Source: Candidatus Abyssobacteria bacterium SURF_5
GTDB lineage: Bacteria; Abyssobacteria; SURF-5
Length of the DNA: 28,934 nucleotides
Assembly (NCBI GenBank): GCA_003598085.1
Contig: QZKU01000055.1
Coordinates: 1-28,934 of the forward strand
Reading direction: 5' to 3'
Shown: positions 90 to 21,194 of the stretch, piece by piece
Layout: the number at the start of each line of letters is the position of its first letter
Position numbering within the stretch: the first letter of the stretch is position 1
Notes under the pieces: generated by a model
Databases searched by the model: none
What the model was told of the DNA's origin: nothing
Seen by the model: only the letters and a program-made list of their open reading frames with translations
Translations under genes and position numbers: made by a program

Positions 90-3000
90 TTACCAGGTCG
101 TGGGGTCGCCTTTTTTCAGGCTGCGCGATTTCCAGATGTAATAGATTATGGGATAAATGGTAAGTTCCAGGAGCAATGAGGTCACCAGGCCGCCGACCAT
201 GGGGGCGGCGATTCTTTTCATCACATCCGAACCGCTTCCTGTTCCCCACATGATCGGCAAAAGTCCTACGATTGTGGTAGTTACTGTCATCATCTTTGGT
301 CGAATCCGTTTGACGGCGCCGTGGTAGATGGCCTCCTTCAGGTCGCCGGTTGTATTCATGCGTTTTTCGCCGGTCCACTTGGCTTGGGCCAAGTCGAGGT
401 AGAGCAACATCACAACCCCCGTCTCGGCGTCCAGGCCGGCGAGCGCGAGAATTCCCACCCACACGGCGATGCTGAAATTGAAGCCGAGGATATAGATGAG
501 CCAGATGGCGCCTACGAGTGAGAACGGAACCGCCAGGAAGACAATGATCGTTTTGGTGACGGATTTTGTATTCAAATACAGAACCACAAAAATGATCAGA
601 ATCGTCATCGGAACAACGACCATCAGGCGCTGTTGAGCCCGCTGCATGTATTCGTACTGGCCGCTCCAGGTGATGGTGTAGCCTGCCGGGATCTCCACCT
701 TCTCGGCGACGGCCCTGCGGGCCATATCCACATAGGTTCCGACGTCGATGTCTTTGATATCGACGTAGATCCAGGCATTCGGCCGCGAGTTTTCGGTTTT
801 GATTGAGGGCGCGGCTTTTTCGAAATAAATATCCGCCAACTGAGCCAAAGGAATCTGTTGGCCCATCGGGGTCGGCACGAGAACCCGCTTCAACGATTCT
901 ACGTCGTCGCGAAGCTCGCGACTGTAGCGCAGGTTGATCGGGTACCGCTCCAGGCCCTCGATGGTGGTGCTGATGTTCATTCCCCCTACGGCTGACTGCA
1001 GGACATCCTGCACGTCGCCGACTGTCAGGCCGTAGCGCGAGATTTCATCTCGATTGATCTTAAAGTTGAGGTAATTTCCTCCGAACACGCGCTCAGAATA
1101 GGCGCTCAGTGTTCCGGGAACCTGCCGCACCACTGCCTCGACTTCGCGGCCCACCTCCTCGAGCGTGCGCAGGTCGGGCCCGCCTATTTTAATGCCCACA
1201 GGGGTCTTGATGCCGGTGCTGAGCATGTCGATTCTGGTCTTGATCGGCATGGTCCACGCATTGGTGACGCCCGGAAACTGGATTGCAGCGTCGAGTTCGC
1301 TGATCAGCTTTTCGGGGTTCATACCCGGCCGCCATTCGCTCTCGGGCTTCAGCGTGATGGTGGTTTCGATCATGCTCAAGGGCGCCGGGTCGGTTGCTGT
1401 ATCGGCCCTCCCGATCTTCCCGAAAACGTTTTCGACCTCGGGAAACTGCTTGATGATCTTGTCGGTCTGCTGGAGTATCTCTCGCGCTTTCGTTGTGGAG
1501 ATGCTGGGGAGAGTTGTCGGCATGTAGAGCAGGTCGCCTTCGTAGAGCGGCGGCATGAACTCGCGCCCGATGAGCTTGTAAGGAATAATGGTCAGTGCCA
1601 TGATGGCGATAGCCGCGAAGAGAACCAATTTGCGGTACTTCAGCACGAAGTGCAGCAGCGGCGAGTACAGCCAGATCAGGAATCGACTGACCGGATGGCG
1701 CTCCTCCGGGTGAATTTTTCCCCGAATCCAGTAACCCATGAGCACCGGCACGAGGGTGATCGCCAACAACGAGGAGGCTCCCATTGCGTATGTCTTGGTG
1801 AATGCCAGCGGTTTGAACAGCCGCCCCTCCTGCGCCTGGAGGGCGAAGATCGGCAGGAAGGAGAGCGTGATCACGAGGAGCGAATAGAAGAGCGTGGGAC
1901 CGACTTCGACGGAAGCGTCCCGGATGATGTCCCAGTGCGGTTTTTCGCCGCCGTCTCTTTCGATGTGCTTGTGGGCGTTTTCTATCATGACGATGGCGGC
2001 GTCAACCATCGCCCCAATGGCAATAGCGATACCGCCGAGGGACATGATGTTCGAATTGATGCCTTGCTGCCTCATGATGATGAACGAGATGAGTATGGCC
2101 ACCGGCAGGGTGAAGATGGCGACGAGCGAGCTGCGCAGATGGAAGAGGAAAATGCCGCAGACAATGGCGACGATGATCATTTCCTCGGTCAGTTTCTCGC
2201 GCAGATTGTGAATCGCCCGCTCGATCAGGTCGGAGCGATCATATGCGACATGTATCTCCACATCGGGCGGAAGACCTTCCTTCAGGCTGGCCAGCTTCTC
2301 CTTCACGTTTTTAATCACGTCGAGCGCGTTGGCGCCGTATCTGATGATAACTATGCCCCCGACCGTTTCGCCTTCACCATTCCATTCGGCGATGCCGCGC
2401 CGGATGTCGGGGCCGATCCCCACGTTCGCTACATCCTGAACCAGAACAGGCGTCCCATTCATGTCGACGTCTACAACTACCTTCTTCAGATCATCCACGT
2501 TCTGAATATAGCCGAGCCCGCGCACCATGAATTCCTTCTCGGACATTTCTATAACACGGCCGCCGACATCGTTGTTGCTGCGCTGGATCGCGTTTTTTAT
2601 TTTGCTGAGCGGAAGATTGTAGGCAAGCAGCTTCACCGGGTCAACCGTCACCTGATATTGCTTTGTGAATCCGCCGATGCTGGCGACTTCGGACACGCCT
2701 TCGACGCTTGTCAGCTCATACTTGAGATACCAGTCCTGGATGGAGCGCAGTTGGCTGAGATCGCGCTGGTCCGAAGTGAGCGCGTACATGAAGGCCCAGC
2801 CGACGCCTGTAGCGTCGGGCCCGAGGGAAGGCGTGACGCCTTTGGGCAATCTGCCGGAAACGTAATTCAGGTACTCGAGCACCCGGCTGCGCGCCCAGTA
2901 CATGTCGGTGCCGTCTTCGAAGATGACATACACAAAGGAGAATCCAAAGAAAGAATATCCGCGCACCACCTTGGCGTACGGCACCGCGAGCATCTGCGTC

Positions 3001-3209
3001 GTGATCGGGTAAGTTATCTGGTCCTCGACCACGCGCGGCGCCTGGCCCGGATACTCCGTATAGATGATTACCTGCACGTCGCTGAGATCGGGTATTGCAT
3101 CGAGGGGGATTGTGGTGATGGAATAGATCCCCGCGGCAATGACGAACAGCGTCGCCAGGATGACCATGAATCTATTTTTCAGCGACCACTCTATTATCCT
3201 TGCCAGCAC
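90..3209 (-). CDS. cusA: CusA-type heavy-metal RND efflux pump (Cu(I)/Ag(I))
   Basis: This 1039-residue inner-membrane proton antiporter of the heavy-metal RND family drives metal out through the CusCBA channel. Length and colinear motifs match CusA closely. The three periplasmic methionines that bind copper or silver in E. coli CusA (M573, M623, M672) appear here as M563 (LLYMPTTLP), M613 (PLSMIETT) and M662 (IDMLSTG), with the same 50 and 49 residue spacing. The proton-relay residues are also visible: the aspartate of MVDAAIVMIEN (D403), E929 in LDAETG and a lysine in RIRPKMM. These point to a monovalent Cu/Ag pump rather than a CzcA-type divalent pump. It starts with GTG only 3 bases after the cusB stop, so it is translationally linked to cusB. 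It is the last visible gene of cusC-cusB-cusA. The protein looks intact. Confidence 0.95.
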   Translation of the reverse strand: MLARIIEWSLKNRFMVILATLFVIAAGIYSITTIPLDAIPDLSDVQVIIYTEYPGQAPRVVEDQITYPITTQMLAVPYAKVVRGYSFFGFSFVYVIFEDGTDMYWARSRVLEYLNYVSGRLPKGVTPSLGPDATGVGWAFMYALTSDQRDLSQLRSIQDWYLKYELTSVEGVSEVASIGGFTKQYQVTVDPVKLLAYNLPLSKIKNAIQRSNNDVGGRVIEMSEKEFMVRGLGYIQNVDDLKKVVVDVDMNGTPVLVQDVANVGIGPDIRRGIAEWNGEGETVGGIVIIRYGANALDVIKNVKEKLASLKEGLPPDVEIHVAYDRSDLIERAIHNLREKLTEEMIIVAIVCGIFLFHLRSSLVAIFTLPVAILISFIIMRQQGINSNIMSLGGIAIAIGAMVDAAIVMIENAHKHIERDGGEKPHWDIIRDASVEVGPTLFYSLLVITLSFLPIFALQAQEGRLFKPLAFTKTYAMGASSLLAITLVPVLMGYWIRGKIHPEERHPVSRFLIWLYSPLLHFVLKYRKLVLFAAIAIMALTIIPYKLIGREFMPPLYEGDLLYMPTTLPSISTTKAREILQQTDKIIKQFPEVENVFGKIGRADTATDPAPLSMIETTITLKPESEWRPGMNPEKLISELDAAIQFPGVTNAWTMPIKTRIDMLSTGIKTPVGIKIGGPDLRTLEEVGREVEAVVRQVPGTLSAYSERVFGGNYLNFKINRDEISRYGLTVGDVQDVLQSAVGGMNISTTIEGLERYPINLRYSRELRDDVESLKRVLVPTPMGQQIPLAQLADIYFEKAAPSIKTENSRPNAWIYVDIKDIDVGTYVDMARRAVAEKVEIPAGYTITWSGQYEYMQRAQQRLMVVVPMTILIIFVVLYLNTKSVTKTIIVFLAVPFSLVGAIWLIYILGFNFSIAVWVGILALAGLDAETGVVMLLYLDLAQAKWTGEKRMNTTGDLKEAIYHGAVKRIRPKMMTVTTTIVGLLPIMWGTGSGSDVMKRIAAPMVGGLVTSLLLELTIYPIIYYIWKSRSLKKGDPTTW

Positions 3210-3212
3210 TGT

Positions 3213-5114
3213 TCAATCAATACTTTCCTGCAGGTTTTCAACTACTTCACCGCAATTCAGCATGGCCGAGCCGTAATAGGGATTCCTTACTTCCTCCGAG
3301 TCCTGTATCCATTTCTCCTTGAGCATAGGACATTCGATAATGACATAGGTGTCCTGCATCGGCGCCTTATATGTCTCGAAGATCGCCACAAGCGCGCGGC
3401 TTACTTCCTTGAACGACTCGCGCGCCTGGTCCACGTCATCCGCTTTCATTGATTTCGCCGCTTGCTGGAGCGTTACCAGACGCGATTGCAAGTCAGCACT
3501 GGCGGCGACGTCAGCGGCTTTAGCGGCGGCGCCGGCCAGTTTTTCGGAATACTGCGAAACGCCCTCTTTCGAGTCGGCGGCAAGTGTGCGCCAAAGCGGC
3601 AGATATGATTCGACCACCTGGTTCAGCGCTGCGCGCGTCTGCGGTTCATCAATGATGCTTTTCTTTTCCTCCATCGCCGCGTGATCGGACTGCTCCGTAT
3701 CCATTGATTCAGTTGCGGCGCCTCGCCTTGCCATAAGCATTTTGTTGATGGCTTCACGCAAGTTGCTTTCTGAATCGATGAGGAATTGGGAGGAGGTCAC
3801 GATTTTCTCGCCTCCCTCAAGTCCTTTCAGCACCTGATATTTGTTATCCCCCTGCAGCCCCAGTGTAACTTCACGCGGCTCAAAGCGGCCGCCGCCGATA
3901 TCGAGGACAACAACATCGCGTTCGCCCGAATGCAGGACCGCCGATCCGGGCACAAGAACGGTACCCTTGGCGGCAACGGGAGTGAAAGTGACTGTTGCGA
4001 ACATCTGCGGCCGAAGCTTCTCATCCCGGTTGGGAATTTCGATGCTGACCTTGTTTGTCCTCGTTTTCTCATCGACGTATGGGTAAAAGAATCGAACCTT
4101 CCCCTTGAAAATTTCGCCGGGATAGGAGGCAATCTCGATTTTCGCTTCCTGTCCTTCTTGAACCCAGGGAAGCTGGTATTCATACAGGTCCACGTGCACC
4201 CAAAGACTCGACAAATCAGCGATCCTGTAAAGGTTCATTCCCGCTTTGGCGTACATTCCCTCAAGCGCCTGATCCATTTTTTCGGTGACGACGCCGGTGA
4301 CCGGAGAAACAACCGTCAATGTCTTCTTGACTTTGCCCGTCTCCTCCAAATTCTGGATTTGTCTGTCGCTGATATCCCAGTTACGCAGTCTTCCGCGGCT
4401 GGCCTCGAGAAGGCTTTCTGCGCGGCCTTCGGCGCCTGCGTATCCGCTGCCGGCAAGATTATCCCGATACTTCAGGGCGCTCAGGTATTCCTCCTGGGTG
4501 CTGACGAGGTCGGGGCTGTAAATTTCAAACAGCGGCTCTCCCTTGCGTACCTTTTGGCCGATGTAGTTGATATAGACCTTCTCTATCCATCCGTCATATT
4601 TGGTATTTACCCAGAAGACTCTCTCCTCGTTATAGTCGAGCGTGCCGACGGTGCGAATTTTCATCCGCAGGTCGCCGCGCTCGACGGTATCGGTGACTAC
4701 TCCAATATTCTGGATGGTGGCAGGGTTAATCCTAATGACGTTATCCGCCTCCTCTTCCGCACCATCCTCATAAACGGGGACCAGGTCCATTCCCATCGGT
4801 GATTTGCCCGGCTTATCCGAGGTGTAGGTCGGGTCCATTGGGGCGCGCCAGTATTTGATTTTTCTGCCGCCCGAATCGGCGGTGGCCGGAGCTTCCGGTT
4901 GCGGCAGAAGCGCCTGTTTTGCTTTTTCAAATGAATCGATGTTTAAAGGATTGGCCAGGATGAAGAGCGTCAATCCGATCCCCAGCGCGAAAAAGAGGAT
5001 GCCGGCGACTGCTGTTCGCGCCCATCCGGCGCATCCTTTCATTCTCTCTCTCACAGAAAGAATGCGCCTGATCTTCTCGCTAATTTGTTTCGGGTTCTGC
5101 CGATTGTTGTTCAT
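3213..5114 (-). CDS. cusB: CusB-type periplasmic adaptor with metal-binding extensions at both ends
   Basis: This membrane-fusion protein links the RND pump to the outer-membrane channel and hands metal to the pump. It has 633 residues, far longer than E. coli CusB (about 400). In order: a cytoplasmic N-terminus, one TM anchor (about 33-53), a heavy-metal-binding segment at 87-115 (KYWRAPMDPT, then KSPMGMDLVPVY), the HlyD-like barrel, hairpin and lipoyl region (about 125-460), and a C-terminal alpha-helical domain (about 495-633) resembling DUF3347. That domain ends with a Cys/Met-rich stretch: C595 in IIECPML, NPYYGSAM, and C621. The extra domains probably buffer Cu(I) in the periplasm. The ATG overlaps the end of cusC by 35 bases, with AAGGCG as a plausible ribosome binding site, and the stop abuts cusA. 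The family call is firm; metal specificity is inferred from cusA. Confidence 0.93.
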   Translation of the reverse strand: MNNNRQNPKQISEKIRRILSVRERMKGCAGWARTAVAGILFFALGIGLTLFILANPLNIDSFEKAKQALLPQPEAPATADSGGRKIKYWRAPMDPTYTSDKPGKSPMGMDLVPVYEDGAEEEADNVIRINPATIQNIGVVTDTVERGDLRMKIRTVGTLDYNEERVFWVNTKYDGWIEKVYINYIGQKVRKGEPLFEIYSPDLVSTQEEYLSALKYRDNLAGSGYAGAEGRAESLLEASRGRLRNWDISDRQIQNLEETGKVKKTLTVVSPVTGVVTEKMDQALEGMYAKAGMNLYRIADLSSLWVHVDLYEYQLPWVQEGQEAKIEIASYPGEIFKGKVRFFYPYVDEKTRTNKVSIEIPNRDEKLRPQMFATVTFTPVAAKGTVLVPGSAVLHSGERDVVVLDIGGGRFEPREVTLGLQGDNKYQVLKGLEGGEKIVTSSQFLIDSESNLREAINKMLMARRGAATESMDTEQSDHAAMEEKKSIIDEPQTRAALNQVVESYLPLWRTLAADSKEGVSQYSEKLAGAAAKAADVAASADLQSRLVTLQQAAKSMKADDVDQARESFKEVSRALVAIFETYKAPMQDTYVIIECPMLKEKWIQDSEEVRNPYYGSAMLNCGEVVENLQESID

Positions 5115-6642
5115 TTGTTCGCCTTATTTCATGCATATCAACTGGCGGCGCCGGGAAAGCCGTGCCTATGGCTCGCTCGATATCCGCCAGCGCAATCATA
5201 TAATCCGCAACGAGTCGCGCATGCGCGACCCGGACATTAAGAAGAAATCGCTCGCTGTCGATTAGATCGAGCGCATTCAAGGTTCCGGTGGAGTAGGCGG
5301 ACTGGGTCGATTCGAGCGCCTGCTCCGCCTGTGGAATCAATACTTTTTCGTACAGATCCAGTTGATCACGGGTGGTCTCGGCCCTGATGACACCGTCACG
5401 CACGGAGAATTCCATCTCGTTTTCGAGCCGGTGAAAGGCTCTTTCGCTGGCATATTTCAGTTCCTTTGCCTCTCTCACTCCCGACATTAATTTTCCCTCC
5501 CAAAGAGGGATGTTGAAGCCGAGGACTACTGCGGACGCATTATCGCCGTTGCCTTCAGGCGGATTCAGTTTTCCCAGTGCATCCTCCCGGTCGTCGACCA
5601 CCGTGTAATTGAAGCCGACGGTGAAATCAGGAAAATATTCCTTTTTTGCCAGCCGTATCTGCTGGTCATGTTTCTCGATCTGGTATTTCGCCGCACGCAG
5701 TTCCTGCTGGTTCGCTTTGCCCAATGCGTACAGCCGGTCAAGATCGAATTCGAGCGCCGGTACAACCATCTCCGCCAGCACCGGAATCGGATGTTGGGGA
5801 GGATTGTTCATGAGCGTATTCAGCCTGGCGACCATCGACTCCCTTTGCTGCCTCAGCATAAGCAACCGGTCCGAATCCCGCGTTATCTCGGCCTGTATCT
5901 TTATCACCGCCTGCTGAATGCCGCTCCCGGTTTCATAGCGTTTTTGAGCAATATCTGCAAAATGCTCGAGCAGTCCCTTATCCTGCTCAGTTATGCGGAT
6001 GCCGGCATCTAGATACGCGAGGTCATAATACGACCGCTTTACCGATGCGACGAGTTCGCGAATGCGCGCCTGATATTGCTCGACGGCTGCAAGCGCATCC
6101 CTCAGCGCCATCTCCGCTTTCGCGTCCAATTTTCCAAACCACGGAAACTTTTGAGACAGCGACAGGATGGTTTCTTGCGGACCCACGCGTGTTTCGATCT
6201 CATCGATGAACTGCGTTACGTTCACCATGGGGTCGGGCAGCGCACTCACCTGCGGAATCCGCTCCATCGCCGCCCGCCAGCGATGTTCCGATTCCCAGAC
6301 TCCTGGATTCGCAAGAATGGCGGCATTAATATATCTCGACAGCAACGGATCATTCGAAAAATAGAATATATCGTAACCGCTCATCTCACCGGATTCGTCA
6401 ATCCTGTCAATCAGTCTTGATCGCGTCGGCGGCAGTGAATATAACAAATGCATATAATCCTCGGGTTCATCCCACAAGCCGACAAGGTTCTGATTTTCAA
6501 CTGATTCCGCTCGCCGGTCTGCAAACAAATCCGTTTCACCCTGTAACACCTCGTGCTCTGTTCCGAATACCGGAACGGGAGCCGCGAACACGCCGACACA
6601 GAGAACCGATATCGTCGCCAACCTCAAGAATCGTCTCCTCAT
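5080..6642 (-). CDS. cusC: CusC/TolC-family outer-membrane efflux channel
   Basis: This 520-residue outer-membrane factor forms the exit duct of the tripartite pump. The start chosen is the ATG at 6642, because it follows a GGGGAAGGG ribosome binding site and gives a clean signal peptide (MRRRFLRLATISVLCVGVF, cleavage near VFG/TEH); the open frame extends 12 codons further upstream without better support. There is no lipobox cysteine, unlike E. coli CusC. The body shows the two alpha-helical OEP repeats typical of TolC proteins, with coiled-coil stretches such as EYLSALKY-like helices missing but AVEQYQARIRELVASV and LEHFADIAQKRYETGSG present. It is first in the operon, overlapping cusB by 35 bases. 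The operon role is strong evidence for function. Confidence 0.9.
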   Translation of the reverse strand: MRRRFLRLATISVLCVGVFAAPVPVFGTEHEVLQGETDLFADRRAESVENQNLVGLWDEPEDYMHLLYSLPPTRSRLIDRIDESGEMSGYDIFYFSNDPLLSRYINAAILANPGVWESEHRWRAAMERIPQVSALPDPMVNVTQFIDEIETRVGPQETILSLSQKFPWFGKLDAKAEMALRDALAAVEQYQARIRELVASVKRSYYDLAYLDAGIRITEQDKGLLEHFADIAQKRYETGSGIQQAVIKIQAEITRDSDRLLMLRQQRESMVARLNTLMNNPPQHPIPVLAEMVVPALEFDLDRLYALGKANQQELRAAKYQIEKHDQQIRLAKKEYFPDFTVGFNYTVVDDREDALGKLNPPEGNGDNASAVVLGFNIPLWEGKLMSGVREAKELKYASERAFHRLENEMEFSVRDGVIRAETTRDQLDLYEKVLIPQAEQALESTQSAYSTGTLNALDLIDSERFLLNVRVAHARLVADYMIALADIERAIGTAFPAPPVDMHEIRRTNEQQSAEPETN

Positions 6643-6680
6643 TCTTATCCCTTCCCCTTTTGATTGGACTTGTCGCAATT

Positions 6681-11041: not shown

Positions 11042-11368
11042 CTATTTTGCTCCGGCTACCGCGTATCCGGCTTGCTTCCAGCCTTCCACGCCGCCCAACA
11101 GCGCCTCACATCGGCTAAATCCCTTTTGTGTATATTCGCCTGCCCGCCGGGCAGAGGTCGCCTCCTGCGGTCAGGCGCAGTAGAAAATTATCTCCTTTTC
11201 CTTCGGAACAGAGCTGAGCCGTGATTCCATCTCCTTTAGAGAGATCGAGCCCTCAAGCTTCATGCTCTTGCATTTCTGCTCATCGTCGTACGCGCATACC
11301 AGAAGCGCCTCCCCCGACTCAACTTTATCATGCGCCTCATGCGGATTGATGCGTTTCGCTTCCGCCAT
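11042..11368 (-). CDS. rhodanese-like protein with in-frame TGA read as selenocysteine
   Basis: A 108-residue single-domain rhodanese if the TGA at 11171-11173 is decoded as selenocysteine (residue 66); read as a stop it leaves a truncated 65-residue product. The start is ATG with a strong AAAGGAG site. Before the TGA: ALLVCAYDDE, GSISLKEMESR and KEIIFYCA. After it, in the same frame, the domain continues without another stop: PQEATSARRAGEYTQKGF, then ALLGGVEGWKQAGY and a TAG stop at 11042-11044. The GG-V-x-x-W-x-x-AGY ending is the standard rhodanese C-terminus, and YCAxPxEATSA is where homologues carry the catalytic cysteine (YCACPxEATSA). So Sec replaces the sulfur-carrying Cys, with C64 two residues before. 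Seen: frame continuity, site and hairpin. Inferred: Sec insertion and thiol/selenol sulfurtransferase or redox activity. The alternative is a recent nonsense mutation. Confidence 0.82.
11139..11173 (-). promoter_or_regulatory. bacterial SECIS-like hairpin after the in-frame UGA
   Basis: In the transcript, starting 16 bases after the UGA, UCUGCCC pairs with GGGCAGG (7 pairs, one G-U) around a GGC triloop. The loop guanines fall at bases 23 and 24 after the UGA. This agrees with the bacterial SECIS pattern: a short apical loop, G in its first two positions, and a loop roughly 16-37 bases from the UGA. A competing hairpin (GCAG-AGG with CCUCUGC, one bulged G) uses the same UCUGC bases, so folding energies should decide. 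The element lies inside coding sequence, as expected for bacteria. Confidence 0.65.
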
Positions 11369-21031: not shown

Positions 21032-21041
21032 AAACCGCTTG

Positions 21042-21114
21042 CGTCCCCAAGGGGAGTCGAACCCCTGTTGCCGGCGTGAAAGGCCGGAGTCCTGGGCCAC
21101 TAGACGATGGGGAC
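21042..21114 (-). tRNA. tRNA-Glu (anticodon TTC)
   Basis: A 73-base cloverleaf. The acceptor stem is GTCCCCA/TGGGGAC, the anticodon stem CCGGC/GCCGG with loop CTTTCAC giving anticodon TTC, and the T arm AGGGG-TTCGACT-CCCCT. The discriminator base is G, as usual for tRNA-Glu. The 3' CCA is not encoded (the next bases are CAA). It is the second gene of the pair, 4 bases after tRNA-Lys. Confidence 0.96.
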
Positions 21115-21118
21115 AGAA

Positions 21119-21194
21119 TGGTGAGTGGGGAGGGATTCGAACCCTCGACCACCGGCTTAAAAGGCCGATGCTCTGCCAACTGAGCTACCCACCC
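21119..21194 (-). tRNA. tRNA-Lys (anticodon TTT)
   Basis: A 76-base gene with CCA encoded. The acceptor stem is GGGTGGG/CCCACTC (one G-T pair), the D arm TAGCTCAGTTGGCAGAGC, the anticodon stem TCGGC/GCCGG with loop CTTTTAA giving anticodon TTT, and the T arm GAGGG-TTCGAAT-CCCTC, with discriminator A. It is first in the pair and separated from tRNA-Glu by 4 bases, so both mature from one transcript. Unlike it, the tRNA-Glu gene lacks an encoded CCA. Confidence 0.96.

Follow-up and report, generated by a model that had tools for sequence, protein, structure and literature searches.

A D-x-R motif after the second strand is usual in rhodanese domains, although it is not required. Selenoproteins with a rhodanese domain are reportedly the subject of papers by Zhang and Gladyshev from 2005 and 2007. 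Those with a CxU motif are catalogued as a predicted subfamily called "form 3", represented by the curated NCBI model NF041203 rhodanese_LYCAU (PMC13188914, table 1), and as "COG0607 form 2" (PMC9312934). An initial annotation of the DNA analysed here (the window, a stretch of 28,934 nucleotides from Candidatus Abyssobacteria bacterium SURF_5) mentioned that rhodanese-related selenoproteins have been reported in selenoproteome surveys, and this catalogued form bears out the statement. Like form 3 proteins, the predicted window protein is a single rhodanese domain with a Y-C-x-U loop (FYCAU). The clade to which it belongs also resembles form 3 in its UGA-coded selenocysteine (Sec), in a P-x-E-x-[ST]-S-A-like stretch past the loop, and in the bacterial groups that carry it, which overlap.

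Other described proteins share some of these features. Forms 1, 2 and 4 of the rhodanese selenoproteins have the domain and Sec, but their motifs differ (UxxS, UxxG). TsoB (form 5, UxxxxU, NF045694) also combines a rhodanese domain with Sec, but is a much longer DsbD-like fusion; relatives of the window protein score only 15 to 23 bits against NF045694, whose cut-off is 805. E. coli GlpE (PDB 1gmx), a single-domain thiosulfate sulfurtransferase, has the fold and length of the window protein, but lacks Sec, carries a D-I-R motif, and has a strand-helix loop that is two residues shorter when counted along the alignment. The rhodanese domains of proteins annotated as DedA/thiosulfate sulfurtransferase GlpE fusions (for example, WP_043095768.1 and WP_003112452.1) have the related loops YCACPNE and YCACPHE, with Cys in the Sec column. 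Identity is 28 to 37%. Unlike the clade, these fusions have no Sec, and D-I-R is kept in the one full domain read.

The rhodanese-fold selenoprotein gene occupies positions 11042 to 11368 on the minus strand, a strand that the initial annotation did not give. An ATG (11368-11366) is followed by 65 sense codons, a TGA (11173-11171, residue 66), 42 further sense codons and a TAG (11044-11042), which is the arrangement proposed initially and amounts to 108 codons when TGA is translated as U. The residues around the TGA, IIFYCA-U-PQEATSAR...ALLGGVEGWKQAGY, are also those reported, and the ribosome binding site noted before the start corresponds to a Shine-Dalgarno-like AAGGAG (11380-11375, minus strand), which can be read directly 6 nucleotides upstream of the ATG. 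A promoter scan upstream of the gene found nothing, and translation of 11042-11368 on the plus strand yields no rhodanese-like protein of this kind.

Homologues retain the TGA. The three genomes searched from the Abyssobacteria phylum contain five copies, of which the source genome has two, and each match includes a TGA; homologues in Geomonas edaphica, Geomonas oryzae and one Desulfobulbaceae MAG have TGA in the same column. Within the Geomonas phylum, 26 of 395 sampled genomes contain 27 hits at E 1e-23 or better, all 27 with TGA. We aligned 28 family members from the Abyssobacteria phylum and from the Geomonas/Desulfobulbaceae side; TGA is present in the Sec column of every one, and no Cys form occurs there among the 28. 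More distant CxC relatives do have Cys in this column, so that the comparison with homologues suggested initially finds Sec throughout the clade and Cys outside it. A pseudogene or a sequencing error, in which a Cys or Trp codon became a stop and truncated a rhodanese, would explain why standard ORF calling stops at codon 65. However, the same TGA recurs in many independent genomes, in homologues that are 46-58% identical, and the sequence past it is under purifying selection with no frameshifts seen in family members, which leaves this explanation with hardly any probability.

Several relatives vary in other ways. The second copy in the source genome (L022, G000:C140:20539-20841) and the copies in two related genomes (L019, L020) have an N-terminal extension that resembles a lipoprotein signal (for example, FISAC or FAFGC), and therefore some clade members, unlike the window copy, may be exported lipoproteins. 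Two closely related proteins with D-x-R (L092, L086) carry FCTUPNE and FCTCPNE at one and the same position; Sec and Cys appear to have been exchanged recently in the sister group. A related rhodanese fragment (L087) has Ser in the Sec column (YCASPNE). A plasmid search returned only two distant DedA-GlpE relatives with Cys, and PHROGs contained no match to the rhodanese selenoprotein.

The reading frame past the TGA behaves as coding sequence. The read-through product scores 25.7 bits against the Pfam Rhodanese family PF00581 (gathering cut-off 22.2), in keeping with the rhodanese C-terminus recognized initially, whereas the truncated product of 65 amino acids matches no family. In the 33 codons past the TGA, none of 25 members has an in-frame stop, compared with 11 and 13 of the 25 in the other two frames. 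Median pN/pS in the 25 members is 0.45 before the TGA and 0.47 after it; because synonymous sites are near saturation in distant pairs, closer pairs weigh most in these values. The UGA could instead be a functional stop, such that only the N-terminal half is made and the remainder is untranslated or a separate gene, and it is true that we infer read-through from sequence. However, the 65-residue half would be without the active-site loop, and the downstream 42 codons specify a conserved rhodanese helix and a GGxxxW motif under purifying selection. A functional stop is therefore very improbable.

Selenocysteine insertion requires dedicated machinery, and the search for selA, selB, selC and selD proposed in the initial annotation finds all four in the source genome (5.1 Mb, 98.5% complete). 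One tRNA-Sec exceeds the Rfam cut-off (67.5 bits), and ARAGORN agrees, calling tRNA-SeC(tca). The selA (588 bits) and selB (381 bits) genes are adjacent on contig C41. A selD gene also exceeds its cut-off (L032, G000:C42:20143-21069, minus strand) and has one in-frame TGA, read as GGUACK, which we take to be the Sec site known from SelD proteins. The source genome appears to hold at least one further selenoprotein gene besides the rhodanese, selD, and SelD is a listed selenoprotein with the motif UxxK (PMC13188914). The presence of selC, selA, selB and selD means that the genome is equipped for Sec decoding. Among carriers, selB occurs in all 28 genomes checked, not counting the source genome. 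It also occurs in 18 of 20 genomes of the Geomonas phylum that have no hit, and because selB is so common there, its co-occurrence with the gene is weak evidence, consistent with Sec decoding but not decisive.

This machinery also bears on the idea that UGA is reassigned across the whole genome, for example to Trp, rather than recoded locally. TGA ends 3 of the 18 main ORFs in the window, and the column is Cys, not Trp, in relatives, so that with full Sec machinery in the genome such reassignment has a vanishingly small probability. Reading codon 66 as selenocysteine, in a functional selenoprotein gene, is almost certainly correct on this comparative evidence. SelB and tRNA-Sec would decode the UGA, directed by a downstream hairpin, to give a stand-alone 108-residue protein of the rhodanese fold with a C64-x-U66 loop. 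Pseudogenization or sequencing error, a true stop and UGA reassignment were considered and ruled out by the conserved TGA, the downstream frame and the ordinary TGA stops.

The candidate SECIS-like hairpin lies at 11140-11154 on the minus strand, with a CUGCC/GGCAG stem and a CGGCG apical loop. Across the family it takes the form CNGCC-N5-GGCNG, beginning 16 nucleotides past the UGA and separated by 21 nucleotides from UGA to apical loop, a geometry that fits published bSECIS constraints (PMC13188914). The loop starts with GGUC in 20 of 25 members, and a G is present within its first two positions in all 25. Three column pairs covary (19/35, 21/33 and 24/30), with both sides changing in 19 cells, and the covariation score of 0.267 is matched by none of 500 shuffles. 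Because the hairpin sits within coding sequence, we also compared it with 5000 synonymous redraws based on the codon usage of the family. Of 125 possible stem pairs, 122 are formed, against at most 103 in any redraw, and 22 of 25 members have complete stems, against a mean of 3.2 and a maximum of 9. The hairpin is conserved far past the demands of protein coding. Evidence from the window sequence taken singly is modest, and the case for a SECIS element thus rests on the family: the 48-nucleotide stretch in the window is not unusually stable (z -0.24), and its five pairs have P 0.12 under synonymous redraws. The core of the window hairpin has a predicted energy of -10.3 kcal/mol, and the short cores of some relatives alone are weaker than -7.5.

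An AlphaFold model (four sequences, all taken from the window or from related loci) has rhodanese topology with a pLDDT of 86.5, and the structure closest to it is that of E. coli GlpE (Z 15.9, 104 of 108 residues). PF00581 matches are found in 29 of 29 aligned relatives. In the model, a strand (residues 59-63) stops just short of Cys64, and a helix starts at residue 70. The initial annotation placed the TGA exactly at the catalytic Cys of rhodaneses. HMMER aligns U66 with the Cys of GlpE and of one 6mxv domain, in agreement with this placement, whereas it is C64 that falls on the Cys when the target is BH2092 or 6pfz, so that the assignment of the classic catalytic position to U66 or C64 is ambiguous. 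Under either alignment, Sec66 is within the active-site loop. Cys64 (codon at 11177-11179, minus strand) is invariant both in the clade (28/28) and in outgroup relatives (24/24). The clade has a further invariant Cys that was not remarked on initially, Cys25 (28/28; LVCAY, codon at 11294-11296, minus strand), which replaces the D-x-R motif. All 28 members have C-[AG]-Y in place of D-x-R, whereas 23 of 24 outgroup rows have the D; the correspondence between the two motifs is uncertain by one column, and in one alignment is shifted by one.

These features separate the clade from the modelled form 3 proteins. The window protein scores 63.7 bits against NF041203 as a protein and 57.9 in a genome search, short of the cut-off of 115, and the clade as a whole scores about 54-70 bits. 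By comparison, scores are about 110-116 bits for relatives with D-x-R and YC[TS]U, and 72.8 for a Cys-only DedA-GlpE domain. The 28 members form a single group in a maximum-likelihood tree, with support of 98/98. The rule used in the review (same domain, same Sec motif) would file the clade under form 3, whereas the NCBI model would exclude it. The clade is apparently a separate, un-modelled branch of the known CxU rhodanese selenoproteins with a third fixed Cys. A search of paper text for its sequence motif returned only unrelated words among the matches listed. We propose more tentatively, giving it slightly less than an even chance, that the clade is a distinct subfamily without a model, where no Cys counterpart of the Sec form is known (28 members) and Cys-Ala/Gly-Tyr replaces D-x-R. 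If so, two thiols and one selenol could lie together in the pocket, which would point to chemistry other than plain sulfur transfer: persulfides or polysulfides might, for example, be reduced so that sulfide is set free.

The protein likely functions in transfer or reduction of persulfide or polysulfide sulfur. In one possible scheme, the U66 selenolate would accept sulfane sulfur from a donor (a persulfide, a polysulfide or a thiosulfate-like compound) to form a selenosulfide. C64, perhaps with C25, would then resolve this intermediate, and the sulfur would be passed on or released as sulfide; we regard these steps as somewhat short of probable. The oxidised resting form would be a C64-U66 selenenylsulfide, and the suggestion made initially of a selenenylsulfide or perselenide at C64-x-U66 is chemically sensible. 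Instead of transferring sulfur or reducing persulfides, the selenoprotein might act as a selenothiol-disulfide oxidoreductase or reduce peroxides. Its CxU motif is of a redox type, the rhodanese D-x-R motif has been lost, and most uncharacterised selenoproteins have been argued to be redox enzymes (review, PMC13188914). However, the protein still has the rhodanese fold and its active-site loop, and the closest relatives with Cys are GlpE-like domains, so that a purely redox function, although a serious alternative, is somewhat less probable than not. For the contribution of selenium to rhodanese chemistry, the clade is a natural test, in which a compact protein of one domain, carrying C25, C64 and U66, can be set beside CxC relatives of the same fold that use only sulfur. 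Such proteins are missed or cut short by gene callers that treat UGA as a stop, and because the nearest NCBI model also misses the clade, many anaerobes probably have its genes annotated wrongly.

In the window, neighbours of the selenoprotein gene include those for a Sir2-like deacylase, a K+ channel with TrkA domains and a PAS histidine kinase. No conserved gene neighbourhood that points to a substrate or partner was found at the loci read, since the neighbours differ between them. Other frames with an in-frame TGA in the gaps of the window were judged by eye, and none is gene-like. Elsewhere on the minus strand, positions 90-6678 encode a heavy-metal efflux pump of the CusA/CzcA type, a CusB-like adaptor and a third ORF that resembles an outer-membrane factor, and tRNA-Glu and tRNA-Lys genes occur in tandem at 21041-21194.
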